This document shows positions 13,693 through 33,100 of a DNA stretch of 50,681 bases, one piece after another. This stretch comes from Thiobacillus sp. (GTDB lineage: Bacteria > Pseudomonadota > Gammaproteobacteria > Burkholderiales > Thiobacillaceae): the NCBI GenBank assembly GCA_024709165.1, contig JANJXF010000084.1, forward strand, positions 1 to 50,681, given 5' to 3'. Numbering within the stretch: position 1 is the first letter of the stretch; each line of letters starts with the position of its first letter. The position numbers and the translations under genes were made by a program. A model generated the notes under the pieces. It was not told where the DNA came from and did not search any database. It was given only the letters and a program-made list of their open reading frames with translations.

Positions 13693-16600
13693 TCATTCTT
13701 GAAGGTACTCAATCTCAGGCAACGCAAGCTCCCATTCTGGACACCGTACCTGCTCGCCATCCTTGGCATGCCGCACCAACACGGACGCGACTCGGACACC
13801 GAGAATCTGCCCGGCGGGCGGCTTAAAGCTCTTTGCCATTCGGGTAACCGTCACCCCATTTGCATCAGCAAGCTCCCATCCTGGCTGTCCATCATTCCGT
13901 GGCTTCAAGGCCAGCGCGTCGCCATAATCCAGTTTCGAAATGGCATTGTGGATAGGAGCATCAGGTGCAAATTTGCCAGGCCAGGAAAGATAAACCTGCC
14001 CCGGATCAGCGACCCAGGTCCGACGCGCAAGACTTGGATTCAAGGTTGCCCCAGCCACGGGAGTCGTCAAACAAAGGTCGGAGCAATCCTGAATAAAGGC
14101 ATGTGGATTCTTCTGTCGCGAACAGAGCGTAAGCGTCTGTCTCGCGCGCGTCATAGCCACGTAGAACAGGCGGCGTTCTTCGTCGTCATTCTTTGACCAG
14201 CCACCCCCATCCAGAATCAACGCATGATCAAATTCCAGTCCCTTTGCGCGGTGCGCTGTCAGCAGCAGCATGGGGCCATTCGGCATGTCCCCCAAGGCGC
14301 TTTTTCCACCAGCACCGAACTCATAAAACTGTTCGATCAAATCCAAGACGACACGCTCCGAACCAGGCGCTGTGGACTCACACTCACGGATAAATTGGGC
14401 CAGCATTGCACGCTGTGGATGCTCAATCAGGTCATCAATACCTTGTCCAAAACGCCGACGGAACCACTTGGAAAGCGTCGTGCTTCGTAAGAGCATGCGG
14501 CGACGGAGGCCAGCCCCCCTCCGCCGCCCCTCGAGCAGCGCAAGCAAGAAATTGCCTTCACGGGTGCTATGGAGATCCGGGACATGATTGTCACGCAATA
14601 GCCGAACCGGAATACCTCTGAGCCGGCACGCGGCCGCCATCGCCTCCAAATGGCCCCATTGCCGCGCAATCACGGCGAAGCGCCCCCAGTATTTATCCTT
14701 CCCATTCTCCTGAAGGCCATTCAGCCTCTGCATCTCGGACAAAGCCGACTCAACCTCGCCAAAGTACGCCTCGGGGACTTCCAGAATATGGACTCGCCCC
14801 TCTGTGACTGGATCCACGTGGGAGAAATCACCTCCCGCTGGCAATTCGCGACGGGCATGATTAATCCGAATCTCTTGATCGGATTTCATGCGGTCTCGTG
14901 CCCGCACGATCACGCGGTTAGCGCAGTCAATGATGTTCTTGGTCGACCGATAGTTTTCTACCAAGTGGTAGCGCTTGGCTTGATAGTCAGTTTCGAATTG
15001 CTGAATGAAGCGGACATTGGAGCCGCCAAATGCGTAGATATTCTGATCATCGTCACCGACCACCATCAGCGAAAGCTTGTCTTCGTCGCTATTCAACGTC
15101 CGGCCAGCCAGCGCACTGATCAAATCGTAGTGGTCAGCATTGATGTCTTGATACTCGTCCACCAAGAGGTGTCGCAAACCGGCAAGAATCCGGTCTCGAT
15201 GGACCGAGGGCCCCACATCATCCCCCTGCTCGGCTTTGCGTAATTGCGCGGTTGCAGTCTTGATCACCGCATTGAAGTCGATATTCTCACCCCGCTCGAT
15301 GGCCACCGCGTAACTCGTTCCGGTGAGCCGCATCGCCAGACCATGCAGCGTCTGAACGCTCACGCCTGCCGCATCGGGGCCAACCAATGCCCACAGCCTG
15401 CGGTAGACCTCAATCGCGGCAGACCGGTTATACGTCAAGACCATGATCTGCTCGGGCAGTACCATGCATTCGCGGAGTAGCCAGGCCACACGATGCACAA
15501 CAACACGTGTTTTTCCGGAACCGGGGCCGGCCAGCACCAGGCTACTGCCTTCCAGCGGTGCCGCCACGATGGCTTGCTGCTCTGGATTCTGCAGATCGGT
15601 CAAAATCCGACGGTGCGCAGCCTCGGTTGTCGCCATCTCCAGAACGTCCTTGCGCCCGGCGAAATACGTCTTCACAAAATCATTCCGGTCCATGCTGAAG
15701 TAAGCGACGATAAACGCCATCGCCGCCTGAACTTTTCGCAAGGAGAGACGTGCATACTCCGCCATGACATGGACCTGGATAATCTTGTCCTTGTAATGCA
15801 GCGCCAACTGATCGTAATCAGATTTCTTAAACTGTCGGCGTCGGGCCTCGGTGTTAAGCTCGATCGTCATGGCTGCCCGGAAAACGGCCTTACCACGGGC
15901 AAGGTGCAAGACCTCGTTGGTATCGAGGTACTTCAGTGATGCTCCGAGCGCCACACTCCAGTCCTTAACGTCAAGATTCTGGATGGTAGTGTCTGATTGC
16001 AGGGCAGCTTCTAGATCGCCCTGCTTGCACGTGACAAGCAGATTGTTTCCCTGACGGTGTCCGATGAAGAAACTCACCAAAGCTTGCGCCAGCTGCATTC
16101 GACGTTGTCGAATGACATCGATTTCCTGCCAACTTCGCAGCAGCTTGATATAGCGACTGTCTTGCCCGGCTGGGCGGAGGGCAAAAAATCCACGTTTCCC
16201 CGCGCCGTCACCGAATGGCTCGGCAAACGATTTGAGTAGGCGAGTGAGTTTCTCGGGGTCGAACTCGACTTTGGCCTCTCGTCGAAGGGTGTCACAAAGC
16301 CGCCGGATATTCAGGATCTGCCAGTCTTCCTGGTCCGCATCCGGCGCAGCTTCGCGAAGGTTGGCCACCAGTGCATTTTCTAAATTCCGAAGTGCCACAA
16401 TCCTGGTCGCCGTGTCGGGATCTCGGTAAAGCGTTACCCCGATCTCCATGTCATTGGACAACAGCTTTAGCCGATCAAGGTCGCGCAGCATAGCCTGGAC
16501 GACGCGGGAATCCTGACCTGTGGCGAGCATCAACTCATCGGTGCTAACCGCTTGGTCATCCTCAGCCTGCATCAGGATCGTGAGAATCTCCAGATACGGC

Positions 16601-18873
16601 TCAATCTTGGTCTCCGGACCCAGTTTTTTCTCAAGCAAAGCGCGTGCTTCGTCGATGCTCGCGATAAGCAAGCTGCCTGGAAAGACGCGAGTATGGTTTT
16701 CTTGCCGTTCCAGGAGCCTGGCCTCTTCCAGCCAGGCGACCGCAATCCGAACTTTCGTGTCGGCGTCGGAAGCATCCGGATCGATCCGGTGCTGATCCGG
16801 GATTTCCAGGAGAATTTCACCGCTTGTAACTACAACTTCCCCTTCACTTCGGTCTTTTTTTTCAATCGAGCGAAGGGCTTTGAGGATCGAGTTGATGTCG
16901 TGCTGGCTAAGGCGCGAGTTCCGCAGCAATCTGAACTGCACATCAAGATCCGCCTCGTCATAGAGGAGTATGCATCTCGCGGGCTGCTGATCCCGCCCTG
17001 CCCGCCCCGCCTCCTGCAGGTAGTTTTCCAGAGAGCCAGGGGTATCAAGGTGTATGACCAGGCGAACATCCGCCTTGTCGACGCCCATGCCAAATGCATT
17101 GGTGGCGGCGATGACGCGAACATCGCCCCGAATAAAAGCCTCCTGGACAGCCCGCTTGTTCTCTGAGGGCATTCCGCCGTGAAAGAAGCCACAGTTGAGG
17201 CCCGCCCCTTTCAAGAATTCGGCTACTTCCTCAACGGTTTTCTGGCGCGCACAAAACACAATCGCGCCACCCTCGTCGCGCAGCGCCTCCTGCAGCAGCC
17301 GAAGCACTTCGGCATACTTCCCTTGCGCGGGTACCGATCGGACTTCGTAGGCCAGATTCTCTCTAGCGACGCCCCCCTCAAGCGCTTCCAGCGTGATGCC
17401 CAAGCGTTCCTCGAAGTGGTCGCGGATGTCCTGAACAACATCGGGCTTGGCTGTCGCCGTAAAACAAAATACGGGCGAGGGTTTATCTTTCTGACGCTTC
17501 TTGATGAAGCGAGAAACGTAGAGGTAATCCGGCCGAAAATCATGCCCCCACTTGGACAGGCAGTGCGCCTCGTCAAACACCCAGGCCCCCACTTCCCGAT
17601 GCATGAGTGCATTGGCGAAAGCCGTGCTTCGGAATTGCTCCGGTGCGACAAAGATCAGCCCCAGGTCGCCCAGCCGCAGCTTGTCCAGCATGAGCCTGCG
17701 TTCGAGGGGGCTGAGCAGGCTATTGAGATAGCCTGCACACGTAATGCCGCGCGCCTCAAGATTGTCGACCTGATCCTTCATCAACGACTGCAACGGCGAG
17801 ATGACGACGGTCAGACTGCCATTCCGGTAATAGCGGGCAAGCGCCGGCAATTGGAAGCAGAGGGACTTGCCCCCGCCCGTTGGCAGAATCGCCAGACTGG
17901 ATTTCCCTGCGAAGCCATTGCTAACAATGACTTCCTGGAGTGAACGGCCGTCTGCGGTACTCGGTGTCGGCCTGAAACTTGTGATTCCCGGAAAATACTG
18001 TGGAAGCAACGCCAATAAGTTGTGTTGCTCCTTGCACCACGTGCATTCTGGATCCGTGCAGGGGACATCCCGAAGGGTGGCGATAAGCTCTCGGGTCTTG
18101 GGGAACGCAAGCGTTACCCATGGGGGAAGCACCGAATTCCCGCCGGCCACCCGGAGCCAAGCCAATGCGTAAGCCAGCGGCTTGTGCCACGCACTATCGG
18201 GAAAATAGTTTTCAACGACCTGCTTCTGGCCTACCCGGCAAACTTTTCCATCTGTCACCCGTACCCACGCACTCCCGGCTTCATCCAATGACGGACGAAG
18301 TGATCGACGAAGCGTGGCAAAAAAACTAGCGAGCCCCTTGCCATTCTCAGGTGCCAGAAGGTAGTGCAAGCAAAGCGCTTCATCCGGATGGCCTTCGACG
18401 CGCTGGCGCAGCGCATCGCCCTGATCCAGGAACAGCTCGTAAGCAAGCTCTGCATCCCGGACCGGATCGTTCTTTGTCGTCGTGCAGAGTTTGTAGTCCT
18501 TGACCAGGCGGTGGTAGGGGTTCTGCGGGAAGGCCACTGGCGAGAGTTCCAGGGTATCCACAAGCGGGAGGCGATGAAGTGCCAGATTTGGATACAACGA
18601 ATCAAGCGCGGGCTGATCGAAAGCCACAATATTGTGGCCCAGCACGAATGCTGCCCCGTCGGTCATTTTGTCTACGCGGCTGACGAGGTCTGCAGCCTTC
18701 CCGGAAATGCGCTCACGGGCGTCCGTGTCGGGCCTGAATAGGCCAAGCTCCCGAAGGACCAATCGATCCTCGCGGGAGGTCTCAATGTCGAGACAAAGGC
18801 ACTTCGCGCCGGCTTTTTCAGGTGCAGTCGTCATCAGCTGCACCCATACAGGTTCTCGCTGCGGCAACAACAT
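13693..18873 (-). CDS. DEDD exonuclease-RecQ helicase-UvrD helicase fusion
   Basis: A 1726-residue three-enzyme fusion. Residues 22-190 are a DnaQ-type 3'-5' exonuclease with D29 and E31 (CLCLDIETS), GHNIVAFDQPAL, and a third acidic motif in DPVRDAELAYEL. Residues 300-700 are RecQ-like: Walker A ILPTGGGKSLCFQ (about 330), VFDEAHCLSKWGHDFRPDYL, FCFTATAKP, and AGRAGRDQQPARC. The C-terminal ~600 residues are UvrD/PcrA-like: LAGPGSGKTRVVVHR, LLVDEYQDI, VGDDDQNIYAFGGS, VENYRST, LLLTAHRAKGLEF, and FYVAMTRARQTL. All motor motifs are intact. It should unwind and digest DNA. It is the last gene of the minus-strand locus, 59 bases after res. The start is uncertain: M14 at 18834 is an alternative. Confidence 0.9.
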   Translation of the reverse strand: MLLPQREPVWVQLMTTAPEKAGAKCLCLDIETSREDRLVLRELGLFRPDTDARERISGKAADLVSRVDKMTDGAAFVLGHNIVAFDQPALDSLYPNLALHRLPLVDTLELSPVAFPQNPYHRLVKDYKLCTTTKNDPVRDAELAYELFLDQGDALRQRVEGHPDEALCLHYLLAPENGKGLASFFATLRRSLRPSLDEAGSAWVRVTDGKVCRVGQKQVVENYFPDSAWHKPLAYALAWLRVAGGNSVLPPWVTLAFPKTRELIATLRDVPCTDPECTWCKEQHNLLALLPQYFPGITSFRPTPSTADGRSLQEVIVSNGFAGKSSLAILPTGGGKSLCFQLPALARYYRNGSLTVVISPLQSLMKDQVDNLEARGITCAGYLNSLLSPLERRLMLDKLRLGDLGLIFVAPEQFRSTAFANALMHREVGAWVFDEAHCLSKWGHDFRPDYLYVSRFIKKRQKDKPSPVFCFTATAKPDVVQDIRDHFEERLGITLEALEGGVARENLAYEVRSVPAQGKYAEVLRLLQEALRDEGGAIVFCARQKTVEEVAEFLKGAGLNCGFFHGGMPSENKRAVQEAFIRGDVRVIAATNAFGMGVDKADVRLVIHLDTPGSLENYLQEAGRAGRDQQPARCILLYDEADLDVQFRLLRNSRLSQHDINSILKALRSIEKKDRSEGEVVVTSGEILLEIPDQHRIDPDASDADTKVRIAVAWLEEARLLERQENHTRVFPGSLLIASIDEARALLEKKLGPETKIEPYLEILTILMQAEDDQAVSTDELMLATGQDSRVVQAMLRDLDRLKLLSNDMEIGVTLYRDPDTATRIVALRNLENALVANLREAAPDADQEDWQILNIRRLCDTLRREAKVEFDPEKLTRLLKSFAEPFGDGAGKRGFFALRPAGQDSRYIKLLRSWQEIDVIRQRRMQLAQALVSFFIGHRQGNNLLVTCKQGDLEAALQSDTTIQNLDVKDWSVALGASLKYLDTNEVLHLARGKAVFRAAMTIELNTEARRRQFKKSDYDQLALHYKDKIIQVHVMAEYARLSLRKVQAAMAFIVAYFSMDRNDFVKTYFAGRKDVLEMATTEAAHRRILTDLQNPEQQAIVAAPLEGSSLVLAGPGSGKTRVVVHRVAWLLRECMVLPEQIMVLTYNRSAAIEVYRRLWALVGPDAAGVSVQTLHGLAMRLTGTSYAVAIERGENIDFNAVIKTATAQLRKAEQGDDVGPSVHRDRILAGLRHLLVDEYQDINADHYDLISALAGRTLNSDEDKLSLMVVGDDDQNIYAFGGSNVRFIQQFETDYQAKRYHLVENYRSTKNIIDCANRVIVRARDRMKSDQEIRINHARRELPAGGDFSHVDPVTEGRVHILEVPEAYFGEVESALSEMQRLNGLQENGKDKYWGRFAVIARQWGHLEAMAAACRLRGIPVRLLRDNHVPDLHSTREGNFLLALLEGRRRGAGLRRRMLLRSTTLSKWFRRRFGQGIDDLIEHPQRAMLAQFIRECESTAPGSERVVLDLIEQFYEFGAGGKSALGDMPNGPMLLLTAHRAKGLEFDHALILDGGGWSKNDDEERRLFYVAMTRARQTLTLCSRQKNPHAFIQDCSDLCLTTPVAGATLNPSLARRTWVADPGQVYLSWPGKFAPDAPIHNAISKLDYGDALALKPRNDGQPGWELADANGVTVTRMAKSFKPPAGQILGVRVASVLVRHAKDGEQVRCPEWELALPEIEYLQE

Positions 18874-18932
18874 TCACTGCCTGTGCTTCTGTGCGTTTTT
18901 TGTTATTCATCCCCCGCCTTTTTTGTACGTTG

Positions 18933-21900
18933 TTATTTCACCAGCTCCATCAGCTTCCCAAAGCTGTCGACCACGTCGTATTTGACGTTCTTCGGGGCGT
19001 ATTTCTCGTTGATCACGTCGAAGAACTTGCGGGCGCACTTGATCTTGGTCTTCTCGATCTCGTTGAGCACCATTGACGACATCGAGCCCTTGGTTTCGGC
19101 CACGAAGTACACGTGCTTGACCGCCCCCTCCGTGAATGAGATCGCCCAGTCTGGGTTGTAATCCCCGACGGGAGTCGGGATCAGGAAGCCGCGCGGCAGC
19201 TTGGCGTACACCACCACTTCGCTGCAGGTATCCAGTTCCTTGACGAATTCACGCTCGACGTTCGAATCGGTGAGCACGTAATCGTAGATGTGGCGCTTGA
19301 GCTTGTCGCCCGCCTTGCTGAAATCCTGCTTCGTCTGCCCAGCGGTGAAGATGTCCATGTCGAACGTGTCCTCGACGGGGTCGTAGGCCAAGTGCTCGAT
19401 GAGTACGGTGGCTTTTTGCTCGTTGATCAGCCTGATGGCCTCGGCAATAAAGCTCTCTGGGTTGGTCTTGAACTGGGCGAATACCGCCACATTCAGCCCA
19501 CGCAGGATGTCGGCCACAGCCCGGCGGGTAAGCTGGGTACCCTCAGCCAGTTTGCCGATCAGGTCGTACTTCACTGCGGAGTGGATCGAATGCGTATTGG
19601 TCTCGGTTTCTGTCGCCTTGAGGGTAAACGCCTCCCCATTCTTCATCCCATCGTAGGTAGCCTGGTCTGCCTGCTCGCCACGCTGAATCGTGTATTGAAG
19701 CGGCGTGACGCGCAGCTGTTCGTCGAGCGCCTTGACTGCCTTCTGCACCAGCTCTGCTGAGTCAAAGCCGACGCTATAGGCTGCCTTGCGATTGATGCGG
19801 TCCCAGAGGGCCTTGAACTCCTGCTTCTCGAAGTTGCTGTTGAGCGGGTTCTTCTTGGGGCGGCGATCGTCACCAATCTCGGGCAGCTGGCTTTCGCTGA
19901 AGATGCTGTCGATCAACTGGAACACCTGCTCAGCGTGCGGCTTCAAGTCAGGCGGAAGCTCGGCAAGGGTGCCCGCCTTCTTCGCCTCGTGATAGGACTC
20001 CGCGATGCGGTCGACCTCGTCCGTGTAGTCGTTCTTGAGAAGATATTTGTAGATTTGCTTGGCCAGCTGCGGCGTAACCTTGATCTCGCCCTCCGGCGTT
20101 TTGAAAACCTTGCCGGTAAAGTAGGTCTCGTCTGCCACCTTCGGTCGGGCGGACAGCGACTCACTGATATCCTTCTGCAATGCGGCAACAAAATCCTTGT
20201 AGCTTTCGCTCGCCACCACTGTCAGCACGTTCACGTCATGCACGATAGCCGGGTGGTCCATGCGCTCGCCGTGCTGGTTCACCGACAGCCGCAGGCCACG
20301 CCCCACCTCCTGTCGGCGTGAAATCGTGTTGTCGCTGTGCTTAAGCGCGCAGATCACAAACACATTGGGGTTATCCCAGCCTTCGCGCAGCGCAGAGTGC
20401 GAGAAGATAAAGCGAACGGGCTCGGCGAAGGATAGCAACTGTTCCTTCTTCTTGAGGATCAGGTCGTAGGCATCCACGTCGCTCGACAAACCCGCGTTCT
20501 CCCCCCGCTTTTCCACATCCGGGTCGACCAGTCGCTTCGTCTTCTTGTCGATGGAGAAGTAACCACTGTGGGTCTTGTCCGAAGTGATCCCGTTCAGGTA
20601 CTTGATGTACGGCGTTTCGTCGAGTTCAAGCACTTCATTGAGGTACAGCTCATATTCTTCCTCGAAGACACGCGCATATTCGCCCTTCTCGTCGTCCCTG
20701 CTGTAATCGCGGTACTTGGCCACTTCATCGATGAAGAAGAGGGTCAGCACTTTGACCCCTTGCTGGAACAGCGCCTGTTCCTTGTCGAAGTGGGCCTTGA
20801 TCGCCTCGCGGATCTGAATGCGGCGCAACGCCTGCTCGTTCACATCACCCGCCACCTCGCCCACGAACAGCTCCACGCCGTTGGTAAAGCTCAGAGTGTC
20901 TGTGTTCGCATTGATGTCTGACACCACGTACCCACGGTACTGGTCGAGTCCATCCGAAAGGTCAAACAGGTTGTCGCCTTTCGAGAGCTTCCGCACCACC
21001 CGCTTGATCTCGCCCTTCTTCAGCTTCTGCTCAAGCTCCACCCGGGCCTGGGGTGACTTTATCGAGATTTCAATGGACTGCAGGTAAAGATAGGCATTGG
21101 TTCCCGCCAGCCCCTTCACCGAGATACCGCGCACGGCGATCTTCTTAACCAGCTTCTGGTTGTAGGCATCGAGCGCGTCCAGGCGGTGGACCTTATTATG
21201 TGTCGTCTTGTGCGTTGCCGAGTAGCGCAAAATCATCAAAGGATTGAACTCCTTTAAAGCATCAAGCGTCTTCTCTCCTTCCATTTTTTGCGGTTCATCC
21301 AAGATGAGAATCGGCCGGTTTGCCTTGATGACGTCGATCGGTCGGCGAGACTGGAAATCATCCAGTTCGGCGTAGATTTTTCGAGCCTCTGCGCTGGCAT
21401 TGGCCTTCAAATTTTTCTGTGCGTTGAATGCCTGCACGTTGATCACCATGACGTTGATCCCGGCGTCCGACGAAAAGCTCTCCAGGTGGTGCAGCTGCTT
21501 GGAGTTGTAGATGAAGAAGCGTGGCTTCTTGTGATACGTCTCCAGGAAATGCTCGGCCGTAATCTCCAGCGACTTGGCCACGCCCTCGCGAATGGCAATG
21601 CTCGGCACAACGATGATGAACTTGCTCCAGCCGTACTGCCTGTTCAGCTCGAAGATGGTCTTGATGTAACAGTAGGTCTTGCCCGTGCCGGTCTCCATCT
21701 CGATGTCGAGGTTGACCTTGCTGATCTTGGTCTTCACCAGGTCGGTCGAAACGGGCAGGTTCTGCTGGCGTTGAACCTGCTGGATGTTTTCCAGGAGGTT
21801 CAGCTCGGACAGGGTGAGGTCCCCGTTGCGGAACGCCGCCTCTTTGTCGGCGACGGCTTCGGACGGGTCGAGCGCCAGCGAAGTCTGCGGGCTGGCGGGC

Positions 21901-22031
21901 TGGGCTTGCTGTGCACCAGGATCCAGTCGATACCGGATGCCGCCGTGGGTCGGCACCTGCCCCTTGAAGCAATCTACTACCGCCTGGACGGCAGCGGTTT
22001 GATACTCTTGGGTCTTGAACTTCAGCTTCAT
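18933..22031 (-). CDS. res: Type III restriction enzyme Res subunit
   Basis: A 1032-residue superfamily 2 helicase-nuclease. It has Walker [15 protein letters not shown] (about residue 112), a DEAD-box-like ILDEPQKM (about 243), LRYSATHKT, and helicase motif [13 protein letters not shown]. The C-terminus has a PD-(D/E)XK nuclease core, NPDWAISF followed by VYFVAETKG (about 970-990). This is the Res subunit of a type III restriction-modification system, which translocates from unmodified sites and cuts with Mod. ATG at 22031 is preferred: AAAGAG lies upstream, and the longer TTG opening adds only MQKENG. The locus order is unusual because a Fic gene lies between mod and res. The gap to Fic (22032-22258) holds no gene. 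Confidence 0.9.
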
Positions 22032-22258
22032 GCCATTCTCTTTCTGCAATCTTTTTGCAAATTCGGCCTCAGCAGGGAGATAAGTATTTGTTTCATATCA
22101 ACTAAGCCCATGTTCTTTCTGCGATCTCTCTGTGCAACGGCCTGTCTTTCTCTGCAGATTTATGGAGCCTTCCGACTCCATTAAGCATTTTGGGGAGCGC
22201 AATTTAATAAACAGACTCCACAAACAGGCTTGCACCGTTTCCAGACTCCACAACCATG

Positions 22259-23374: not shown

Positions 23375-23385
23375 ATGTGCCTACC

Positions 23386-25386
23386 TCAGATGGACTTCAC
23401 TTCGGTGGCGGGCGACAGCAGCTTGAAAATCTGCTCGACGTTGATCTTCACAGCGCTGTCCCTGAATCCGGCGTCGCGGAACACCACGCGCAGCGGCTCC
23501 AGCTTTGCGAGCTCCTTCACGAAGGGCTCGTCGATACCGCCGCTCGCGTCGAAGCATGCAGCCAGTGCATTCCCGTCAACCAGGAACACGTCTTTGTCCT
23601 GGATCGTCTGCTTAGCAATCTGCAAAGCCAAGTCCACGCCCCAATCCAGCATCACCTGAAACAGCAGGTCTTCGGGAGTACGGTCGGGCTTGATGTTGTC
23701 TACGAGAAGGTCGATTTGGCCTTTATCTAGCGCGTCGGGAGCGTAATAAACGTCAGCCATATTTGACGTATCGATTTTGAGCACACGGAAGCCAACGTCC
23801 CGACTCCATCCCGGAGCGCCATCCTTCTCCCGCACAGCCGTACCTGCGCGGCGGATGCGTTCCTTTGAGATTTCCGAAATAAAGGGTTTTAGGCCGATCT
23901 GTGTGCAGAACTGATAGGCCTCCTTTGCGTCCTTGCTTTCCTGACCAATTTCCTCAGGATACTGAACACTAATGAAACGACGACCGCCTCCTTCTCGACG
24001 GTTTATTTCCATCGTTGCATGCGCAAGGGTCGAAGATCCAGCGAACAGGTCAAGGCAGATGTCTTTCGGCCCAGTCATGAAGGAAATGAGCCGCTCCATC
24101 AAGAGTACCGGCTTGGGGTTAGAAAATACTTTTTTCCCTTCGGGGAATAGAGTCTTAAGATCATAGGCCCCAGACCGGCCATCCAGATCAAAAACGCTGG
24201 ACAATTTGTCTTCATACTCAGAGGCGTATGCCTTCAGCTCGATCAGTTTTGTATCGTCATCCCCAAAAAGAACAAGACCTTCGGAAAGCAATCGCTTCAT
24301 GGTTTCTTCCGGGAAACGATAGCCCATCAACGGTTGCTTACAGGCCCTGCCAGTTGCTGGATGAATAACATCGTACCTGTAACCTTCTTTTCCAGGGTTA
24401 TGAACGCTACGGCTTCCTGCATAGACGCCATGCACGTCTATAAATTTGTAGTCCGCGAGGGGCCCCAGTTGAGACTTGTTTTCTCTATACCACTCAGTGT
24501 AAGCGGCCTGAAGATCGTCAAGCTTAGGATGCTTCGCGATCAGCTCTTCCCCAATCTTGACGAGAATCTCTTTGGCGTCTGAAACTGAAGTCTTCCAGAC
24601 GCCTTCGAGATCGCTCTTGCTTCTTGCAAATACGTGAATGCTCTCGTGCTCGATAGCGATGTTGCTCGGGTTGTTGTCTGTGGCGTTCTTCCAAATCAGG
24701 GTGCCAAGGAAGTTTGCTTCACCAAATACCTCGTAACATAAGTGAAGAACGTTCGCTGTTTCGGCGTCATCAATGGAGATGGCAATAACACCGGCTGGGG
24801 CCAACAGATTCCGTGCGACTCTTAGCCGCTGATACATCATCCCAAGCCAGTCGGAATGGAATCTTCCGTTTGCCTCAGTATTGGCAACGAGTCGGTTACC
24901 CTCTTCATCGGACTGATTGCTATGCGTCAGATAGTCGTAGGTGTCTCCAACGAAATCGTCTCGATAGACAAGGTTGTTCCCCTTCTTTCGGTTGTAGGGC
25001 GGGTCGAGATAGATCAGCTTGATTCTGCCGAGATATGTTTCCTGCAATAGTTTCAAGGCATCCAAATTGTCGCCCTCGACGAATAGGTTCTTCGTCGTAT
25101 CGAAGCTCACACTCTCCTTGCTGCAAGGCCGGAGCGTCTTGGCGATCGGTGCATTGGCCGCCAGCAGCGCCTCTCGTTTACCTGGCCAGTTCAGGTGGTA
25201 GCGCTCTTGCGGGCCTTCAACAATGGAATCGGCCAACTCTTGACGTAGCTGATCGAAATCCACGGCCAGCTTCAATGTGCCGCCTTCACCCTTCGCCTCA
25301 GTCACACAATTTGGAAACAACTCGCGAATACGGGCGACGTTGTCCTGCGTGAGATTGGGCGAGTGCATTTTCATTTTTTCCATCAT
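23386..25386 (-). CDS. mod: Type III Mod DNA methyltransferase
   Basis: A 666-residue methyltransferase of the beta class, with catalytic motif DPPY at residues 128-131 (IYLDPPYNRKKGN) ahead of the S-adenosylmethionine motif DLFAGSSTLAHA (about residue 443). It should methylate adenine N6 in the recognition site and, with Res, recognise DNA. The central region (about 200-430) is the likely target recognition domain, and its sequence specificity cannot be read here. The start ATG at 25386 follows a weak AAGGAT; a second ATG is adjacent. The gap to the DUF2130 gene (25387-25468) is empty. Confidence 0.92.
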   Translation of the reverse strand: MMEKMKMHSPNLTQDNVARIRELFPNCVTEAKGEGGTLKLAVDFDQLRQELADSIVEGPQERYHLNWPGKREALLAANAPIAKTLRPCSKESVSFDTTKNLFVEGDNLDALKLLQETYLGRIKLIYLDPPYNRKKGNNLVYRDDFVGDTYDYLTHSNQSDEEGNRLVANTEANGRFHSDWLGMMYQRLRVARNLLAPAGVIAISIDDAETANVLHLCYEVFGEANFLGTLIWKNATDNNPSNIAIEHESIHVFARSKSDLEGVWKTSVSDAKEILVKIGEELIAKHPKLDDLQAAYTEWYRENKSQLGPLADYKFIDVHGVYAGSRSVHNPGKEGYRYDVIHPATGRACKQPLMGYRFPEETMKRLLSEGLVLFGDDDTKLIELKAYASEYEDKLSSVFDLDGRSGAYDLKTLFPEGKKVFSNPKPVLLMERLISFMTGPKDICLDLFAGSSTLAHATMEINRREGGGRRFISVQYPEEIGQESKDAKEAYQFCTQIGLKPFISEISKERIRRAGTAVREKDGAPGWSRDVGFRVLKIDTSNMADVYYAPDALDKGQIDLLVDNIKPDRTPEDLLFQVMLDWGVDLALQIAKQTIQDKDVFLVDGNALAACFDASGGIDEPFVKELAKLEPLRVVFRDAGFRDSAVKINVEQIFKLLSPATEVKSI

Positions 25387-25468
25387 TAGTATCCTTGGTC
25401 CGCGCTACGGTTTCGGTGGGGCGACGAATTCTCTGCTCTACCCGTAAAAGCGGTTGAAATAGATAGCC

Positions 25469-26878
25469 TCATTCTTTATCAGACGAATCTTGATTCTTAA
25501 GCTCGTCGAACTTGTCCGCCATCGTCGGATTGCCCCGCGTCAGCTTCTTGATTGTCACGTCTTGTGCCTTGTCATTGGCAAGGCGCAGGTTCCGATCGGT
25601 GCCGAGCAGCGCCTCCTTCGTCTTCTGCAGGTGGTCGATCGATTTGTCGATCTCATCGATCGCTGTTTGGAAGCGCCTGGAAGCGAGGTCGTAATTCTTC
25701 CCGAATGCGGCCTTGAACGACTCAAGCTCGATTTCGAAGGTCGTAATGTCGATGTTTTGCGCCTTCACGAGCGCCAGCTCCGATTTGTATTGGAGCGAGT
25801 TCATAGCAGCATTTCGCAGCAGCGTGATGATTGGAATGAAGAACTGCGGTCGGACGATGTACATCTTTGGGTGGCGATGGAACATATCGACAATCCCGGA
25901 GTTGTATAGCTCGCTGTCGGGTTCAAGCAGGGAGACCAGAACTGCGTACTCGCACCCTTTCTCGGTGCGATCCTTGTCGAGCTCCTTCAAGAAGTCTTCG
26001 TTCTTTTTCTTGGTGGCCGTTTCGTCACTCTCGTTCTTCATCTCGAACATGATCGAGACGATCTCGGTGCCAGCCTCATCTGAGTCGCGGAAGATGTAAT
26101 CACCCTTGCTGCCGGTCCGCGAATCGTTGTCCTTCTCGAAGTATGCCCTGGGAAACGCAGTGGCACGGATTCGGTTGAACTCAGTCTCGCAGTGCTGCTC
26201 AAGGGTTTCGCCCACCATCTTGGTCGATAGTCGCGCCTTCATGTCTCGAAGGCGCTCGATCGCGTCATCGCGATCCTTGATCTGCGTCTCGAACTTTTCT
26301 TTCAGAGCCTTCTCGGCGAGATGCTTTTCAAGCTCTACCCGCTGCAAGCCGCTCTTCAGTTCATCGCGTTCCTTCTCTACTGCACTGACTGCCTCGGTGA
26401 TCTCGAGCTTTTTTTCGATGTTGCTGGCGTCAAGCTTTGCCTTCAGCTCCTGAACCTCTGCATCCTTCACCGCAGTGGCTTTCTGCAACTCGTTCAGGAG
26501 CTTGGCCTCAGCCAGCTTGGATGCGGCGTGCTTGTCATGCTTCGCCTGCTCAAGCTCGTTTGCAAGCGCGTCACGCTCTTTCTCTACTGCGCTCAGGGCC
26601 TGAGTCACGGCGAGTTGCCGCGCAACCTCACCGGCATCGAGCTTGGCTTTCAACTCCTGGATCTCGGCGTCCTTGGCAGAAGCCACCTTCTGCAATTCGC
26701 TGGCGACCTTTGCTTGGGCGAGTTCGACGGCATTCCGCTTGTCCTGCTCAGCCAGCTCAAGCCGCTCATGTAGCTGCTTCTCGAAATCGCTATCACGAAC
26801 TTGCTTCAGGATGTCCGCGTACCCGGCATCATCAATCTTAAATGCCTTACCGCAGTGCGGGCAGATGATTTCATGCAT
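25469..26878 (-). CDS. DUF2130 coiled-coil protein with PD-(D/E)XK-like core
   Basis: A 469-residue protein. An N-terminal zinc-ribbon half-motif CPHCGK (residues 6-11) is followed by a coiled coil (30-225) that contains a clear duplication: residues 54-110 and 123-179 share [18 protein letters not shown] and SAVEKERD with a 69-residue period. The C-terminal domain has the DUF2130 signature, with [10 protein letters not shown] followed by SIMFEMKNE. This D and ExK spacing is like restriction nucleases, though nuclease activity of this family is not established to my knowledge. Its ATG lies only two bases after the stop of the OLD-like gene, so the two are coupled. Context suggests a DNA-processing part of the defence locus. 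Confidence 0.85.
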
Positions 26879-26880
26879 AG

Positions 26881-28761
26881 CTATTTGCCCTCTGTCTTAG
26901 CCACAATTTGTAAAAGCACCTCCGGCACCTCACCTTCGGCCTTGAGTGTTGCCGTGCGGTATGCAAGCTGATTCTTTGAAAGCTTTATGCCTGTATCAGT
27001 CTCTACACTTTCGCAAGCCACAAGCCATTCCTTCCAGTTCTCGGACAGAAATGCCTCGAGGTGATCTTCAAAGATTGCGACTTTGGTTGTTGCGACTGTG
27101 GATGGATAATCTTCTTCAGGTAGGCCGAAATACCGCAATAGCTTGCGGTTCTCCACTGCATGGTTGTTCCGCTCTCTATCAATATCTTCTTGCTTCTTGT
27201 TATTTGCCTTGGCGCGCACCTCAAACCCGCCATCCGCATCAAAGAGTGCATAAACAGGTACCCCAATCGAGGTCAGGATCGCATGAGCGAGTGGGATTGA
27301 TGTCTTTGATCCTACGGGAACAATCGAGATGCCTGCCGCCTCAAGCGAGCCGGGAGCGGACCTATCACCAATGCCGTAGAACACGGATGATTCTGTCGAG
27401 CCTTCCACTAGGAAGGCTCGGTTCGCAAAGAGTGCTATGGAGAGCTGATCGACCACGTTATGGTCAAGTCGACGATCTACTACATCACCGTCCACCACTC
27501 CCTGAAGCATATTTTTCACATCAGCAACCGTTGCGTAGTGAACAGAAACAACCGGCGTCGCGTCAGCTGATCTTGTCAGCCGTCTGACTTGGTCGAAATG
27601 GCGAGCCTCAAGAAAGTAGGGGCTATGAGTTGCATAAGTCACCTGGACGCGTTTACCGACATCTTCAGCGAGCGACCTGAGTACCTTTGCAAAAGCTTGC
27701 GCCTGGATCGGGTGCTGAAAGAGCTCCGGCTCCTCGATCGCCAAGCAAATGATCCCTTCGGATGAAGCTGCGCCGGACTGTGCCAAGAGTTGGAGCGCCG
27801 AGATCAGAATCGTGCGCTGAAAGCCATGCCCCTGTCGTTCCACTGCGGTCTCGGTTGTGCCATCGAGAACTGCCACCTCGAATGTGGTCCGTGGAGCCTT
27901 GAGTTCCACCTCTGCAGGAGCAACAGTGACAGCACGACCAGGTGAGTAAGACGTGACGACCTCGTTGAGCCGCGTTGTGATGGCATCAAGCTGCGCCTTA
28001 AACTTCTCCTCGTAGACTTGCTGCTGCTTCGCACGCGACTCCGCGACAATTTCCGCGATTGCTTCATCAGCGGCAGAGCGATCGATTGAGCGCTCAAGGA
28101 TTCGGCCGATGATGCTCGACTTTCCGTCGATCGACTCCTCGCTTGCGCGAAGGTCGGCAGTGACCAGGACGAAGTCGAAGAGACCGCTCATCTTACCGCC
28201 GCTGTTGAAGCCGAAAAAGTTGGTCTGCAGCGCTTCGGGAGCGTCCACGAGTTGGTCGGTGTTGGAAGATTCCCAGGTCGTCATCGCTTGCTCAATGGCA
28301 GCGGCGGTAGTGGCTGACGGCAGGCCTAAATCCGGACGGTCCGCGCGTAGTTTGGAATAAAGCTCCTTTTTAGGTGCCGCACCGCTTGCAGCCTTGATTG
28401 CGTTGAAATCCGGGAAGCCCTTTGCATTAGCGGAGAGCACGTCGGAGCCATCAGGTGACCGGCGCTTCCATGCAGTGAACGTGGTGACACCTTCCGGCGC
28501 ATACTTGCCAAGTGCCTCGCGGTCCTTTTCGGTAAGGCCTGAGAATGAGACCTGAACCTCGATGTCTTCGTCAGTCGCCCCAAAAGAGCAGTCCTTCTCT
28601 GTCAGCGAGCCAGTCTTGCCGTTGAAGTACCAGTCGAGCGCACGAAGCACCGTTGACTTGCCGGCACCGTTCGGACCGATAAAGGTCGTTACGGAATCGA
28701 AGGGGATCGTCACGTCTTTTAACGTGCGGAAATTCCTTATGCGAACGGATTGGATTTTCAT
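26881..28761 (-). CDS. OLD-like AAA ATPase with TOPRIM nuclease domain
   Basis: A 626-residue protein. Residues 1-400 form an SMC/RecF-type ATPase: Walker [13 protein letters not shown] (residues 29-40), a coiled-coil insertion (about 230-265), and Walker [13 protein letters not shown] with [12 protein letters not shown]. Residues 450-600 contain a TOPRIM domain with [12 protein letters not shown] (catalytic Glu) and [12 protein letters not shown] (DxD). This is the layout of OLD-family nucleases such as P2 Old and GajA, several of which act against phages. The gene lies within the defence locus and is closely coupled to the DUF2130 gene. The gap to DUF4391 (28762-28947) holds no gene. Confidence 0.88.
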
Positions 28762-28947
28762 TTCTGGATTCAGCTCCTTATGCCCGTTGCCAGTTCGATT
28801 TTGGCAATCTGCTGGACTGTTTTTGCTGTCGTTTATCGTCGAACATGGTGCTCGACCCCACTTCCCATCTTGGCCATTTTCGTGAAGCCACGAAAATGGC
28901 CGTCTTGTGGTCGATGCGGGCCTTGAGTCATTGCACTGTGTTCTCGG

Positions 28948-29625
28948 TCATTGTTTGAGCTCTTCCAGTTCTGTTCTCAGCTTCCGTAGCTCAGCATTGA
29001 TTTCCACCTTGCGGTTGAATTGTTTTTCCCTGGCCAGCTTCGCAGCTTCTTTTTCCACCTCGCGCTGCTTGCCGCGAACCTGGCCCACCCGCGCCACCTG
29101 CTCGGCAAGGCTTTCCTGCAGCCGCGCTGGCAACGGGATCAGGCGCTGCAGTAGCTGCTCGTACAAGCCCCCCAGGTCCAACGCCACTGGCATGGGAACA
29201 CGTTCCGCGTCCGCATCCAGCCAGCCGCTGAAAAAATAGTCGCTCACCACCCATTTGCTCGCGTCCGCTTCGTTGGGCCGTTTGTAGCAGGCCACCACCT
29301 GGATCTGATTGTTGTGGGCGAGCTCAAACAGGATAGGGAACTGGACTGCGCCATCGATGCAACGCAGTACATCGTGGTCAAGCTCTGGGGTCTTGAGACT
29401 GACCGCAAACACCTGAATCTCCGGCACGCCGGGCTTGGCCGGTAAGTTGATGGTTTCTGGTGCCAGCTTGAATTGCCAGACGATTTGCTCGACCTGCTCG
29501 ACGAAAAGGTTTTTCAGCCGTGTGTTGGCGCCGCTGTGCTCGTAAATCTTGTTTTTGGGGAGCGTACGGCCGAACGCCGCCTTGGCGGGATAGCTGATGA
29601 GTGCCGGGTGCTTAGCCGAAGTCAT
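28948..29625 (-). CDS. DUF4391 protein
   Basis: A 225-residue protein with a mixed alpha/beta N-terminal domain (MTSAKHPALISYPAKAAFGR through HDVLRCIDGAVQFPILFELA) and a C-terminal charged coiled coil (LAEQVARVGQVRGKQREVEK). This is the DUF4391 family, which I know mainly as a neighbour of SNF2 helicases and DNA methyltransferases in defence-like loci. No catalytic motif is visible. Its ATG overlaps the stop of the SNF2 helicase gene (ATGA), which suggests a fixed stoichiometric partnership. It may be an adaptor or helicase-binding subunit; this is inference. Confidence 0.8.
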   Translation of the reverse strand: MTSAKHPALISYPAKAAFGRTLPKNKIYEHSGANTRLKNLFVEQVEQIVWQFKLAPETINLPAKPGVPEIQVFAVSLKTPELDHDVLRCIDGAVQFPILFELAHNNQIQVVACYKRPNEADASKWVVSDYFFSGWLDADAERVPMPVALDLGGLYEQLLQRLIPLPARLQESLAEQVARVGQVRGKQREVEKEAAKLAREKQFNRKVEINAELRKLRTELEELKQ

Positions 29626-32600
29626 CCGCCCTCCTGTATCACCAGAAAGCTGATCAGCTCGAAGTCGTCCAGGCCGGCAATGTTGTTCACCAGCGCTGTT
29701 GTCTTGCCGCCGCTGAACAGGCTGTCGAGGTCCTTTTCTTCATTGACCTCGATCATCGACCGGATAGCCTTGCCCAGGAGGTCGGAATAGACCTGCATGT
29801 TCCGCCCGTCCGCCGTTTCCGCATTGAAAATCTGGCACGCCGTCGGGATGGGTTCCGAGCGCCCCCTGCAGCAGCTGCGTGCGAGATCGAGCAGGTGCTT
29901 GACCTCGGTGTGGTCGTGGATCACCTCGCCAGCACGGGCGATATAAACGAGGTAGTAGGGATGCAGGCGATTGTGCCCCGGCTGATGGGCGCCGACGTTG
30001 ACCTCGGGGTTGCGATTGCGCAGTGTGAAGATCACGCCCGGCTTCAGCCCGAGCTCAGGATTGGCCGGGACGACAGCATGCATGCCGTTGGGCATGTGGC
30101 TGGGCTCCCCGTTGGCCTTGACGTAGTTCAGCAGGTCCATGCGGAAGTCGTTCAAGCCCAGGTCGGTGATCGATATGCCGGTTTTGAGGTCTTCCAGCTC
30201 GATGACTTCTTCCTGCAGGCGCCGCAATTGTTCCTTGCGGTAGGCCACGTCGTTGGCCTGCGCACTAAGGACGTTGTCGTCGCCGGTGGCGGTCACGTCG
30301 GCGATCATCATCCGGTTTTCGACGCGTTCCTTGAGGTTGATGTATTCGTCTAGCGAGATGTCGGGCCAGTAGTTGACGAGCTGGATGCTGGTGTTCGGCG
30401 AGCCGATGCGGTCCACGCGCCCAAACCGCTGGATGATGCGCACCGGGTTCCAGTGAATGTCGTAGTTGATCAGGTAGTCGCAGTCCTGCAGGTTCTGGCC
30501 CTCGGAGATGCAGTCGGTGCCGATAAGCAGGTCGATTTCCTTAGGTTCATTGGGGAGGACGAGAGCCTTTTCCTTGGACCGTGGCGAGAACAGCGTCAGC
30601 AACTCCTGGAAGTCATAGCTCTTCGCGAGCGTGGACTTGGGCGCTGCGCTGCCGGTGACCTTGGCGCTGTGGATTTCCTGGTTGGCCAGCAGGTGCGGTG
30701 CAAGATTGGCGTAGAGGTAGTCCGCGGTATCGGCAAAGGCGGTGAAGATAAGCACCTTCCTGTTGCCGGGGTTGATCGGGTTGGCGATCTTCTCCAGCAC
30801 GTGGGCCTTCAGGTGCTGGAGTTTGGCGTCGTCTTCGGGGGTGACCTTGTTCATCGAGGCCAGCAAGGCGTCGATGATTTCAAGATCGGCCTTGAGCTCG
30901 TGTTGCCAGGACGGCAGATCCAGATCACCAAAACTGATCCTGACCTTGCCCCCAATAGAGTCGTTGTCGTCTGGCAAGGGAAAGTCGTCGTCTTCGGCGT
31001 CCAGATTTTCGAGGGTATCCGTCAGGTCGCCGATGCTGACGGCGCTGCCTGTTCGATTGAACTCGGAAATCTTATCCAGGACACTCTGGTGGTTTCTTTG
31101 CAGCGATTGCAGCGTGAGGCGGAACGACGCCACCGAACTTTCCAGCCGCTTGAGCAGGTTCACCGTCATGAGGGCCTGCAGGCCCTTTTCACGTCCGGAC
31201 AGACTCAGGTTGCCCCGTTTGTCGCCCGACTGCGCGTTGTAAAGATCGCTGTATTTCTTGACCCGGCTCGGCAGCAAATAGGCGGCCGGGGTATACACCG
31301 CGAGCTTGAGCATGGACAGCTGCGCGAAAATATCGTTGAAGCCCATCACGTCCGACCGGGATGTGAGTGGGCAATGGTAGGACAAGGGCTTGCGACGCTC
31401 CGGGAATTGGCCGATGTCCTTGGTGTCGTAGAAGGTCTGGATATGCTTCCGCGAGCGAGCGATGGTGACGCTGTCCAGCAGCTCGAAGAAATCAAATTCC
31501 AGCGAATCCAGAATGGCGCGCGCGGTACGCTCCTCGGGCGGAAGCTTTGACCAGGTGTTGAAGCTAGCCTGGGCATTGCGAAAGATTTCTTCTACGGACT
31601 TCCCCGTCTTCAGCTTCTTGGTGAGACTCTCCGAGTCGCCTTCGTAGGCCAGGGCCAGTTGGTTACGCAGGTCATTAAAGCGGTTGTTGACCGGGGTGGC
31701 GGAGAGCATCAATACCTTGGTCTTGACGCCTTCCTTGATGACCTTGTTCATCAGCTTCTGGTAACGGGTTTCCTTGTCCTTGTAGGCGTCGTTGTTGCGA
31801 AAGTTGTGCGATTCGTCGATCACCACCAGGTCGTAGTTTCCCCAGTTGATCCGGTTCAATGGCGTGCCGAATGACTCGCCGCTGGTGCGGCTGAGGTCGG
31901 TATGGCACAGGACGTCGTAGTTGAAGCGATCACGCGCAAAGATGTTGGTCTTTAGGTTGCGGTTGTAGTTGAGCCAGTTGTCGGCGAGCTTCTTTGGGCA
32001 AAGCACAAGCACCGACCGGTTGCGCAGCTCGTAGTACTTCACCACGGCCAAGGCGGTGAAGGTTTTACCCAGGCCGACGCTGTCCGCCAGGATGCAGCCG
32101 CTGTAGGTTTCCAGCTTGTTGATGATGCCGGTCGCCGCATCCTTCTGGAAGTTGAACAACTTGTTCCAAATCAGGGTGCCCTGGTATCCAGTTCGATCGT
32201 TTGGCAGGACATCCTCATCGATATCGTCCAAAAACTCGCTGAAGAGGTTGTAGAGCATCAGGAAGTAGATGCTCTCGGGCGCGTTTTCCTGATACACCGA
32301 GGCGATGTGGTCGCAGACCTGTGCAGTGACGTCCGCCAGTTTGTCGGGGTCGTTCCAGATCTGGTCAAACAGGCTCAGGTAAGTCGACGTGAACGTCGGC
32401 TCGTCCATCCTGTTGACGAGGTTCGATATCGCATCGCCCTGCTGATAGCCAAGATCAACCGCCGTAAACCCATGCAGCGGCATATACGCAGTGTCCGCAC
32501 CCGCTGCTTGCACACAGGCAAACTGCTGCATCGGCGCTTTGGTGCGATTGGATTTGAACGTGGCCTTGCGCCGCATCCAGTCGGCACACTCCTTGGCGAT

Positions 32601-32909
32601 GGCGCGCTGGGTCAGCCGATTGCGCAGCTGAATTTCGAACTCGCTCCCATAGAGGCTGCGCTCGCGGCCAACTTTCGGAATGTGAAACTCCCGGCGCTCC
32701 TTGCGAATCTTGTCGGTAACCTCGTCCGCAATGAATGTCGGCGAGGTAAAGATGAACTTCAGCTCATCGATCTTTTCGAGTTCCGCTTTCAGCGCCTCGA
32801 AGGCATACATTGAAAAACAGGACGCCGCGATCTTCAGGCGTGCGCCAGGCTTGAGGGTGTGCTTAAGGTCGTCGCCAAGCAGGCGGGCAATGTTGTCGAT
32901 GAGTTCCAT
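29622..32909 (-). CDS. SNF2-family helicase with degenerate PLD-like N-terminus
   Basis: A 1095-residue protein. Residues 1-210 resemble a phospholipase D-like module found in front of SNF2 helicases (PLHGFTAVDLGYQQGDAISN), but without a clear HKD motif. The motor follows: Walker A ADSVGLGKTFTALA (about 277), VIDESHNFRN (365-374), MLSATPVNNRF, then RecA2 with VLIFTAFADTADYL, DLLIGTDCISEGQNLQD and motif VI QRFGRVDRIGS. All motor motifs are intact. It should be a DNA translocase. Its start overlaps the stop codon of the ribbon-helix-helix gene by one base, and it overlaps the DUF4391 gene downstream. Confidence 0.9.
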   Translation of the reverse strand: MELIDNIARLLGDDLKHTLKPGARLKIAASCFSMYAFEALKAELEKIDELKFIFTSPTFIADEVTDKIRKERREFHIPKVGRERSLYGSEFEIQLRNRLTQRAIAKECADWMRRKATFKSNRTKAPMQQFACVQAAGADTAYMPLHGFTAVDLGYQQGDAISNLVNRMDEPTFTSTYLSLFDQIWNDPDKLADVTAQVCDHIASVYQENAPESIYFLMLYNLFSEFLDDIDEDVLPNDRTGYQGTLIWNKLFNFQKDAATGIINKLETYSGCILADSVGLGKTFTALAVVKYYELRNRSVLVLCPKKLADNWLNYNRNLKTNIFARDRFNYDVLCHTDLSRTSGESFGTPLNRINWGNYDLVVIDESHNFRNNDAYKDKETRYQKLMNKVIKEGVKTKVLMLSATPVNNRFNDLRNQLALAYEGDSESLTKKLKTGKSVEEIFRNAQASFNTWSKLPPEERTARAILDSLEFDFFELLDSVTIARSRKHIQTFYDTKDIGQFPERRKPLSYHCPLTSRSDVMGFNDIFAQLSMLKLAVYTPAAYLLPSRVKKYSDLYNAQSGDKRGNLSLSGREKGLQALMTVNLLKRLESSVASFRLTLQSLQRNHQSVLDKISEFNRTGSAVSIGDLTDTLENLDAEDDDFPLPDDNDSIGGKVRISFGDLDLPSWQHELKADLEIIDALLASMNKVTPEDDAKLQHLKAHVLEKIANPINPGNRKVLIFTAFADTADYLYANLAPHLLANQEIHSAKVTGSAAPKSTLAKSYDFQELLTLFSPRSKEKALVLPNEPKEIDLLIGTDCISEGQNLQDCDYLINYDIHWNPVRIIQRFGRVDRIGSPNTSIQLVNYWPDISLDEYINLKERVENRMMIADVTATGDDNVLSAQANDVAYRKEQLRRLQEEVIELEDLKTGISITDLGLNDFRMDLLNYVKANGEPSHMPNGMHAVVPANPELGLKPGVIFTLRNRNPEVNVGAHQPGHNRLHPYYLVYIARAGEVIHDHTEVKHLLDLARSCCRGRSEPIPTACQIFNAETADGRNMQVYSDLLGKAIRSMIEVNEEKDLDSLFSGGKTTALVNNIAGLDDFELISFLVIQEGG

Positions 32910-33100
32910 CAGGAATCGGGCTTTTCATTCTTATTGTCGGGCCCATTGGCTTTGAGACCGTGCTTCTGCGCATAAGCGAGAATGAGCACTTCCATCATGG
33001 ATGCGATGGAACGATGCTCCCGCTCGGCCGCCATGCGAAGTAGGCGCTTGACGTCGGCCGACGTGCGGATTGACACCGTTTCATCCTTCAGTCGTTTCAT
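32909..33100 (-). CDS. Ribbon-helix-helix (CopG-like) regulator, first gene of the defence operon
   Basis: A 63-residue protein: MKRLKDETVSIRTSADVKRL, then LRMAAEREHRSIASMMEVLI. The short beta strand (TVSIRTS) followed by two helices is the ribbon-helix-helix DNA-binding fold of CopG/Arc repressors. A strong GGGAGG ribosome site lies just before ATG at 33100. Its stop overlaps the helicase start (TGATG), so it probably autoregulates the 19-kb operon. A longer upstream opening to 33976 is compositionally GC-biased and not believable. Confidence 0.82.
   Translation of the reverse strand: MKRLKDETVSIRTSADVKRLLRMAAEREHRSIASMMEVLILAYAQKHGLKANGPDNKNEKPDS

Follow-up and report, generated by a model that had tools for sequence, protein, structure and literature searches.

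A variant of type III restriction–modification in which SNF2 and DUF4391 genes precede mod and res

Type III restriction is described, in the accessible part of PMC4490356, as the work of a two-subunit Mod–Res enzyme, EcoP15I (Mod2Res), whose use of ATP triggers sliding and whose cleavage requires two inverted sites. The Type ISP enzymes LlaBIII and LlaGI are single polypeptides, in which a coupler domain lies between the methyltransferase and the ATPase (from a portion of PMC7049714), whereas SauUSI, NgoAVII and CglI have a PLD fold beside an SF2 motor (domains from a portion of PMC7913695). In the Type-2 BR systems (BREX-related, DUF499), as set out in a portion of PMC12839542, a Swi2/Snf2 helicase bearing an N-terminal HKD domain is accompanied by an N6-methyltransferase and by backup effectors embedded in the loci, and the HKD–SNF2 protein acts as the nuclease effector. 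Here, we analyse a locus from Thiobacillus sp., contained in a 50,681-nucleotide stretch of DNA (GenBank assembly GCA_024709165.1, contig JANJXF010000084.1, positions 1 to 50,681; hereafter, the window), in which homologues of Mod and Res are preceded by a SNF2-family ATPase and a DUF4391 protein, and we regard this SNF2–DUF4391–Mod–Res arrangement as a novel form of type III restriction. With EcoP15I it shares subunit homology, the order of mod before res, and the DPPY, FAG, helicase and PD-(D/E)XK motifs; unlike EcoP15I, it has a conserved SNF2 protein (a second ATPase), DUF4391, a regulator and cargo slots. It differs from SauUSI, NgoAVII and CglI in the absence of HxK and the presence of a methyltransferase and Res, and from Type-2 BR in that the HKD is dead, that Mod–Res takes the place of the other components, and that neither a DUF499 ATPase nor DUF3780 was found in the eight proteins scanned. 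The likeness to Type ISP is drawn at the level of function, and the parts are separate subunits here. No description of SNF2–DUF4391–Mod–Res was found in the literature searched, which mostly excluded subscription journals, so that its absence from print is not implied.

A preliminary description of the window had suggested that these four genes could belong to one layered defence system of nine genes on a single strand. An open reading frame (ORF) check confirmed that all nine exist and that they occupy the minus strand between position 13693 and roughly 33100; they are given here from the upstream end, the L numbers denoting loci of other genomes that are compared below.

32909–33100, minus strand: RHH regulator, sharing 1 base with the SNF2 start (a homologue occupies this position in 11 loci)
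29622–32909, minus strand: SNF2-family ATPase, core gene 1 (Pfam, motifs)
32157–32909, minus strand: SNF2 N-terminal PLD-fold domain without the HxK motif (model, fold search, alignment)
28948–29625, minus strand: DUF4391, core gene 2, proposed coupler of the SNF2 motor and the methyltransferase (Pfam, neighbourhoods)
26881–28761, minus strand: OLD-family ATPase–TOPRIM nuclease, cargo in slot 1 (Pfam; same place in L004 and L005)
25469–26878, minus strand: DUF2130 protein, cargo in slot 1 (Pfam)
23386–25386, minus strand: Mod, beta-class N6-adenine methyltransferase with a variable centre (target recognition), core gene 3 (Pfam, EcoP15I Mod homology)
22259–23374, minus strand: Fic, cargo in slot 2, between Mod and Res (Pfam, motifs; same slot in L031 and L033)
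18933–22049, minus strand: Res, type III restriction subunit, core gene 4 (Pfam, EcoP15I Res homology)
13693–18873, minus strand: fusion of a DEDD-like exonuclease (by eye), RecQ and UvrD, 1726 amino acids, neighbour (Pfam, neighbourhoods)

Pfam searches with the eight larger proteins returned SNF2, DUF4391, AAA_15 with OLD-TOPRIM, DUF2130, N6_N4_Mtase, Fic, RE_endonuc with ResIII, and UvrD with RecQ-type DEAD/Helicase_C; the RHH label was read by eye from a 63-residue protein that had no match in NCBIfam. The motor and nuclease motifs are at their expected places: Walker A, DESH and motif VI in SNF2, Walker A and TOPRIM in OLD, DPPYN and DLFAG in Mod, ETGTGKT and NPDWA...AETKG in Res, and HPFKDGNGRIGR in Fic, which we take, from this motif, to be class II AMPylase-like. 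The tight junctions that had been claimed are real for RHH/SNF2, SNF2/DUF4391 (a 4-base overlap), OLD/DUF2130 (a gap of 2 bases) and Mod/Fic (11 bases), and not for the other four, where the gaps are of 59–209 bases (DUF4391–OLD 186, DUF2130–Mod 82, Fic–Res 209 and Res–RecQ/UvrD 59); the wider gaps mostly coincide with the edges of the cargo.

Comparison with relatives resolves this nine-gene 'system' from one genome into a four-gene core, a swappable regulator, cargo and an unrelated neighbour, and the claim of a single layered system did not survive it. One genome per species was searched for close relatives of DUF4391, and of the 101 stretches confirmed, the 80 best were retained as loci and scored with profiles of the window genes; being selected via DUF4391 (49–76% identity), this set is blind to partnerless DUF4391 at greater distance. 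In 79 of the 80 loci, the gene immediately upstream of DUF4391 is SNF2 (the exception, L023, begins at a contig edge). Where the sequence continues downstream for at least 2.5 kb, Mod follows in the same orientation in 69 loci out of 70, L023 again being the exception, and where it continues for at least 5.5 kb, Res follows in all 64. As an independent check, 369 genomes drawn evenly from the class were searched separately: 16 have SNF2 (at E 1e-100), 13 have DUF4391 and 12 have both (Fisher p 2e-18), the thirteenth DUF4391 being a short fragment match with an internal stop codon. The two genes are adjacent in 11 of these 12 genomes and on different contigs in the other (G303). The gene order is kept at 44–50% SNF2 identity in L086, L088 and L092 (with an extra inserted gene in some) and on an Enterococcus faecalis plasmid (L105), and the record annotation of an archaeal plasmid (L129) gives the same gene set; in L094 and L095, where SNF2 identity is 43–44%, the four-gene set is not kept. 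SNF2 relatives (E 1e-100) occur in 101 of 72,556 plasmid records, and the Escherichia coli version of SNF2 in 10 of 5,426 complete E. coli genomes, nine of these matches spanning at least 80% of the query. The constant unit is, we are confident, SNF2, DUF4391, Mod and Res in fixed order.

That Mod and Res form a type III restriction–modification core, as had been claimed, is borne out by their likeness to the solved EcoP15I subunits, with E values of 1e-126 for Mod and 9e-76 for Res. The genes lie in the order mod then res. Res combines an SF2 ATPase with a C-terminal PD-(D/E)XK nuclease, the residues of which are conserved in an alignment of the window protein with 62 homologues, and it is the sole recognisable nuclease of the four-gene unit. 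In Mod, DPPYN at 128 precedes DLFAG at 446, the order that we take to define the beta class, and the variability profile places a variable centre, as expected for central target recognition, at about 226–450. Both SNF2 and Res are far less variable than this centre, which suggests that SNF2 probably borrows its specificity from Mod. The SNF2–DUF4391 addition is conserved and real, and in keeping with the preliminary description, which could match the cluster to no named system, no named counterpart was found for it.

The first 251 residues of SNF2 fold like the PLD domains of SauUSI (the best fold match, E 0.002) and NgoAVII, with a Foldseek probability of 1.00 and E values of 0.002–0.006; searched against Pfam at E up to 5, this N-terminus matched 0 families. 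The catalytic HxK is absent from the aligned place in 58 close SNF2 relatives, where GFTAVD is invariant, as is F148, although two of these relatives have an HxK at another position. An active PLD nuclease in the window SNF2 was rejected because HxK is absent, and the 'up to four nuclease-like domains' of the preliminary description must be lowered for the core, since the PLD fold there lacks catalytic residues. When one regular expression for HKD was applied to ORFs of at least 900 residues, the motif was absent from 111 of 114 SNF2 ORFs, a total in which the window SNF2 (L115) is counted and one locus appears twice (as L086 and as L109); L129 and L130 are included neither here nor in the tree (36 of 38 rows). 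An adjacent DUF4391 is present for 109 of the 111, and in L083, which does not, the sequence ends 69 bases later. None of the three ORFs with an intact motif (L094, L095 and L108) is accompanied by a DUF4391 gene, and in the tree the three proteins share one branch with support of 100/100.

All three motif-intact SNF2 genes instead precede a methyltransferase, which in L094 matches Eco57I and N6_Mtase, in L095 (where the gene is cut by the contig end) matches N6_Mtase, and in L131, an extended version of L108, was recognised by tblastn as homologous to the L094 enzyme, with its sequence divided between two frames. When the diverse DUF4391 profile was compared by hhalign with the N-termini of these three methyltransferases (alignment A3), the probability was 94.7% over 149 columns, against 0.7% for the control; PF14335 itself matched the N-termini in L094 and L095, the two proteins scanned, at 23.0 and 21.1 bits, respectively. 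Where the SNF2 nuclease is intact, a DUF4391-like part appears to be fused to the methyltransferase, and where it is dead, Res and a separate DUF4391 are present, a pattern most simply explained if DUF4391 joins the motor to the methyltransferase. Type ISP enzymes illustrate such coupling within a single polypeptide (PMC7049714). The PLD-intact SNF2 gene followed by a methyltransferase gene is a separate two-gene arrangement in its own right (L094:4580-10802, L095:1-5147 and L131:6930-14234), and possibly a simpler restriction system. As for DUF4391 itself, its predicted model has a pLDDT of 92, a sequence search of the PDB returned 0 matches at E up to 5, and none of the PADLOC models matched the protein; in the accessible part of PMC7784981, it is mentioned in a single table row.

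We see an even chance that the locus is a four-gene extended type III restriction–modification system with a Mod-directed SNF2–DUF4391 motor, preceded by an interchangeable regulator and provided with two cargo slots. Mod would recognise the target site and methylate it, and Res together with Mod would cleave unmodified DNA in the fashion of EcoP15I. DUF4391 would dock the SNF2 ATPase onto the methyltransferase, the dead PLD domain probably serving as a dimerisation or DNA-holding platform, and SNF2 may move or remodel DNA or bound proteins and so enable Mod–Res to act; the presumed target is phage. For the coupling mechanism, in which DUF4391 links the SNF2 motor to the methyltransferase, we put the chance slightly below even. 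A bolder extension, which we put at rather less than even, is that DUF4391 is a transferable coupling domain, and that a machine of nuclease–SNF2 and coupler–methyltransferase lost its nuclease, after which motor and coupler joined an EcoP15I-type Mod–Res; the outcome would be a second-motor class of type III enzymes in bacteria and archaea, with an operon that docks exchangeable backup effectors. As the loci stand, a wide family carries two undescribed subunits in constant association with Mod–Res, a second ATPase and a protein without fold relatives in two structure libraries, for which a division of labour is suggested between a motor without a nuclease and Res as the cutter.

A number of observations weigh against the proposed coupling and the extended system. 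The need for SNF2 or DUF4391 in restriction is one that we infer from the sequences. With regard to the PLD domain, the model is of middling confidence (pLDDT 64), no fold match reaches an E of 0.001 or below, and L108 was flagged by the tree program as long-branched and compositionally odd. The motif-less L089 has no adjacent DUF4391, only an ORF without an assigned family up to the contig end; in the same genome, a DUF4391 gene is found at the start of another contig, ahead of Mod–Res. Gene order also has its exceptions: in L023, DUF4391 is followed by other genes, with no Mod in the 4.4 kb downstream, L085 has the order Mod–X–Res–SNF2–DUF4391, and in L100 a Mod–Res of the same family has no SNF2–DUF4391 nearby, which means that some Res proteins of that family do without the pair. 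The methyltransferase N-termini fall short of the PF14335 cut-off of 29.9 bits, their likeness to DUF4391 rests on three related proteins, and with a narrower DUF4391 alignment the hhalign probability is only 11.4%. Finally, the fold search with the DUF4391 model found no match, the best E values being 0.07 among solved structures and 0.095 among viral structures.

The genes lying between the core genes are swappable passengers. An insert of more than 500 bp separates DUF4391 from Mod (slot 1) in 17 of the 77 loci that show both, and Mod from Res (slot 2) in 16 of 68, and the corresponding junctions without one number 60 of 77 and 52 of 68; loci from Vogesella and Chromobacterium (L010, L014) are examples in which the core order is uninterrupted. 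The OLD–DUF2130 pair of the window, searched for in these 77 loci only, occupies slot 1 in two (L004 and L005), and Fic occupies slot 2 in two of 68 (L031 and L033); DUF2130 is also found in slot 1 of L030, together with SIR2_2 and HerA-like (DUF87) genes, and clustering assigns the same two insert ORFs to L034. Twenty of 54 insert ORFs listed were scanned with Pfam. Slot 1 yielded a UvrD-like helicase, SIR2 with HerA, BRO, Abi_2, PDDEXK_3 and PemK, and slot 2 yielded AlbA-Schlafen, DUF1016/YhcG, RhuM and PLD, with BRO and ORF6N below cut-offs; four of the 20 had no Pfam match, and more distant loci add GmrSD, RhuM, DUF4917 (AbiH weakly) and ORF6N. The commonest cargo cluster of slot 1 (six loci; L006:10642-13365) is a UvrD_C protein of about 900 residues, of which one member was scanned and the N-terminus is poorly matched. 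OLD, DUF2130 and Fic are, therefore, passengers of two slots that hold other defence-type genes elsewhere, and the slots themselves are places in which to seek further defence genes. The regulator is likewise exchangeable: in the 74 loci whose upstream sequence is 300 bp or longer, the gene adjoining the SNF2 start falls into a cluster of 17 ORFs (HTH_17) or one of 16 ORFs (WYL), each named from one member scanned with Pfam, or is an RHH gene in 11 loci, so that RHH is one of several interchangeable regulators.

PrrC guards EcoprrI by staying silent while the restriction enzyme is active, and the passengers could likewise be guards that are silent while Mod–Res (and SNF2) is active and that, once the core is blocked by a phage, act to kill or arrest their host cell. 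The toxin and effector types found in the slots, namely Fic, Abi_2, PemK, SIR2–HerA, AlbA-Schlafen, DUF1016/YhcG, RhuM, GmrSD and DUF4917, fit this, as do the embedded backup effectors described for BREX loci in a portion of PMC12839542. Set against it are the junctions without an insert, which are the majority in both slots and from which it follows that the core does not depend on cargo; a guard function is accordingly a possibility that we put at rather less than even.

A different role for the motor is that SNF2–DUF4391 acts as a safety module, stripping or resetting Mod–Res on host DNA, for example behind the replication fork, given that type III enzymes methylate only one strand, and so limits self-restriction rather than aiding attack. 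SNF2 relatives typically remodel DNA-bound proteins, SWI/SNF and RapA are among the PDB matches of SNF2, the nuclease domain is dead, and the conservation and co-occurrence data fit such a role equally. Nevertheless, other type III systems work without the pair (EcoP15I and the Mod–Res of L100), and the PLD-intact sister arrangement resembles an attack module, so that we regard the safety role as unlikely. We think it similarly improbable that SNF2–DUF4391 is an independent two-gene defence module merely co-inherited with type III restriction–modification: the halves are separable, as the order variant L085 and the Mod–Res of L100 show, and L023 has DUF4391 without Mod, but Mod and Res follow the pair in the proportions given above, the same four genes turn up in Bacillota and in an archaeon, the DUF4391 genomes of the class sample have SNF2 in all cases save the fragment, and no nuclease is recognisable in the pair. 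Least of all, despite one strand, close spacing and a common carrying element, do the nine genes form one layered defence system, which we consider very improbable given the rarity of OLD–DUF2130 and Fic in their slots, the other genes held there elsewhere, the replacement of RHH by WYL or HTH_17 and the absence of the exonuclease–RecQ–UvrD fusion from the loci described next. Usual separate occurrence, which the preliminary description had named as grounds for refuting its proposal, was seen for OLD, DUF2130, Fic and the fusion, and partly for RHH, and not for SNF2, DUF4391, Mod and Res.

The fusion protein is an unrelated neighbour of the extended type III core. It was found in none of the 44 core loci that reach 3 kb beyond Res, and it is seen elsewhere apart from the core; on these grounds, its membership of the system was rejected. 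Partial matches to UvrD alone, of 26–99 bits, occur in four of the 80 loci (L031, L043, L047 and L055). The fusion has matches at E 1e-100 in 25 plasmid records, 18 of them over at least 80%, and the copy in Allochromatium vinosum lies near a type I restriction–modification system, without the core beside it. There is mild co-occurrence with SNF2 at the level of genomes: nine of the 369 genomes of the class sample have the fusion and three of these also have SNF2 (Fisher p 0.005), or two besides the window (p 0.04), yet only in the window are both on one contig, the other shared genomes having them on separate contigs. The N-terminus of the fusion matches 0 Pfam families at E up to 5; the motifs LDIET, GHN...FD and NDPVRDAEL, noted by eye and also present in the Allochromatium homologue, are presumably DEDD-like.

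Several named defence systems were considered for the cluster, of which DISARM, BREX, Gabija and PARIS were rejected. SNF2 resembles DrmD of DISARM (E 3e-40, although its 138 bits lie far below the cut-off of 610) and less strongly the DrmA models (E 1e-19), and an adenine methyltransferase is common to both, but no DUF1998 (DrmB) match is present in the eight proteins, and type III Mod–Res is present here. BREX and BR membership fails on the lack of a PglZ or DUF499-type ATPase match in Pfam searches of the same eight proteins, though SNF2 matches the BrxHI/BrxHII model at E 9e-25. For Gabija, OLD is followed by DUF2130, with the UvrD domain 8 kb away in the RecQ fusion; for PARIS, an AriA-like match exists (E 3e-42), yet the TOPRIM domain is part of that protein, and in place of a separate AriB the adjacent gene is DUF2130, for which no PADLOC model matched. 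The resemblance to helicase/methylase/ATPase (HMA) loci that had been proposed holds to the extent that SNF2 matches HmaA (E 4e-24); the best PADLOC model for SNF2 is 'HKD+Snf2', however, and the best models for Mod and OLD, among the 25 of 30 and 25 of 113 matches listed, respectively, are not HMA, so that these matches lend membership no clear support.

The nine-gene cluster is cargo of a 33.1-kb integrated plasmid-like element (9637–42718) at tRNA-Arg(CCT), as is evident from perfect repeats that copy the 3' end of this tRNA, an integrase, plasmid-type genes and a lower G+C content. The principal features of the element are as follows.

9637–9684, no strand assigned: left attachment repeat, 48 bp, 48/48 identical to 42671–42718
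9774–10793, plus strand: tyrosine integrase beside the left repeat (Phage_integrase, E 8e-25)
35149–36819, minus strand: TraG/TraD-like ATPase of the carrying element (Pfam)
40586–41653, minus strand: TrfA-like replication initiator of the carrying element (domain match)
42671–42718, no strand assigned: right attachment repeat, inside tRNA-Arg(CCT) at 42671–42746 (repeat and tRNA match)

The element also contains KfrA and DUF6573 genes. Measured per 1.5 kb, G+C inside it is mostly 0.50–0.61 (two windows at 0.64 and 0.67), compared with 0.61–0.69 outside. A gene of the uracil-DNA glycosylase superfamily lies within it at 39286–39930.

Three of the compared loci have further points of note. An insert-free core is found, alongside repA, dnaE and a LAGLIDADG gene, on an E. 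coli plasmid of about 112 kb (L102:1-18444), which presumably resembles the SSU5-type phage-plasmids. In L100:11101-16976, a row of several Mod-like ORFs stands ahead of a single Res, without SNF2. Lastly, in a genome of the same order, OLD-like and UvrD-like genes in a Gabija-like order directly follow the core locus (L086:15940-19676), with weak matches of 41 and 75 bits.

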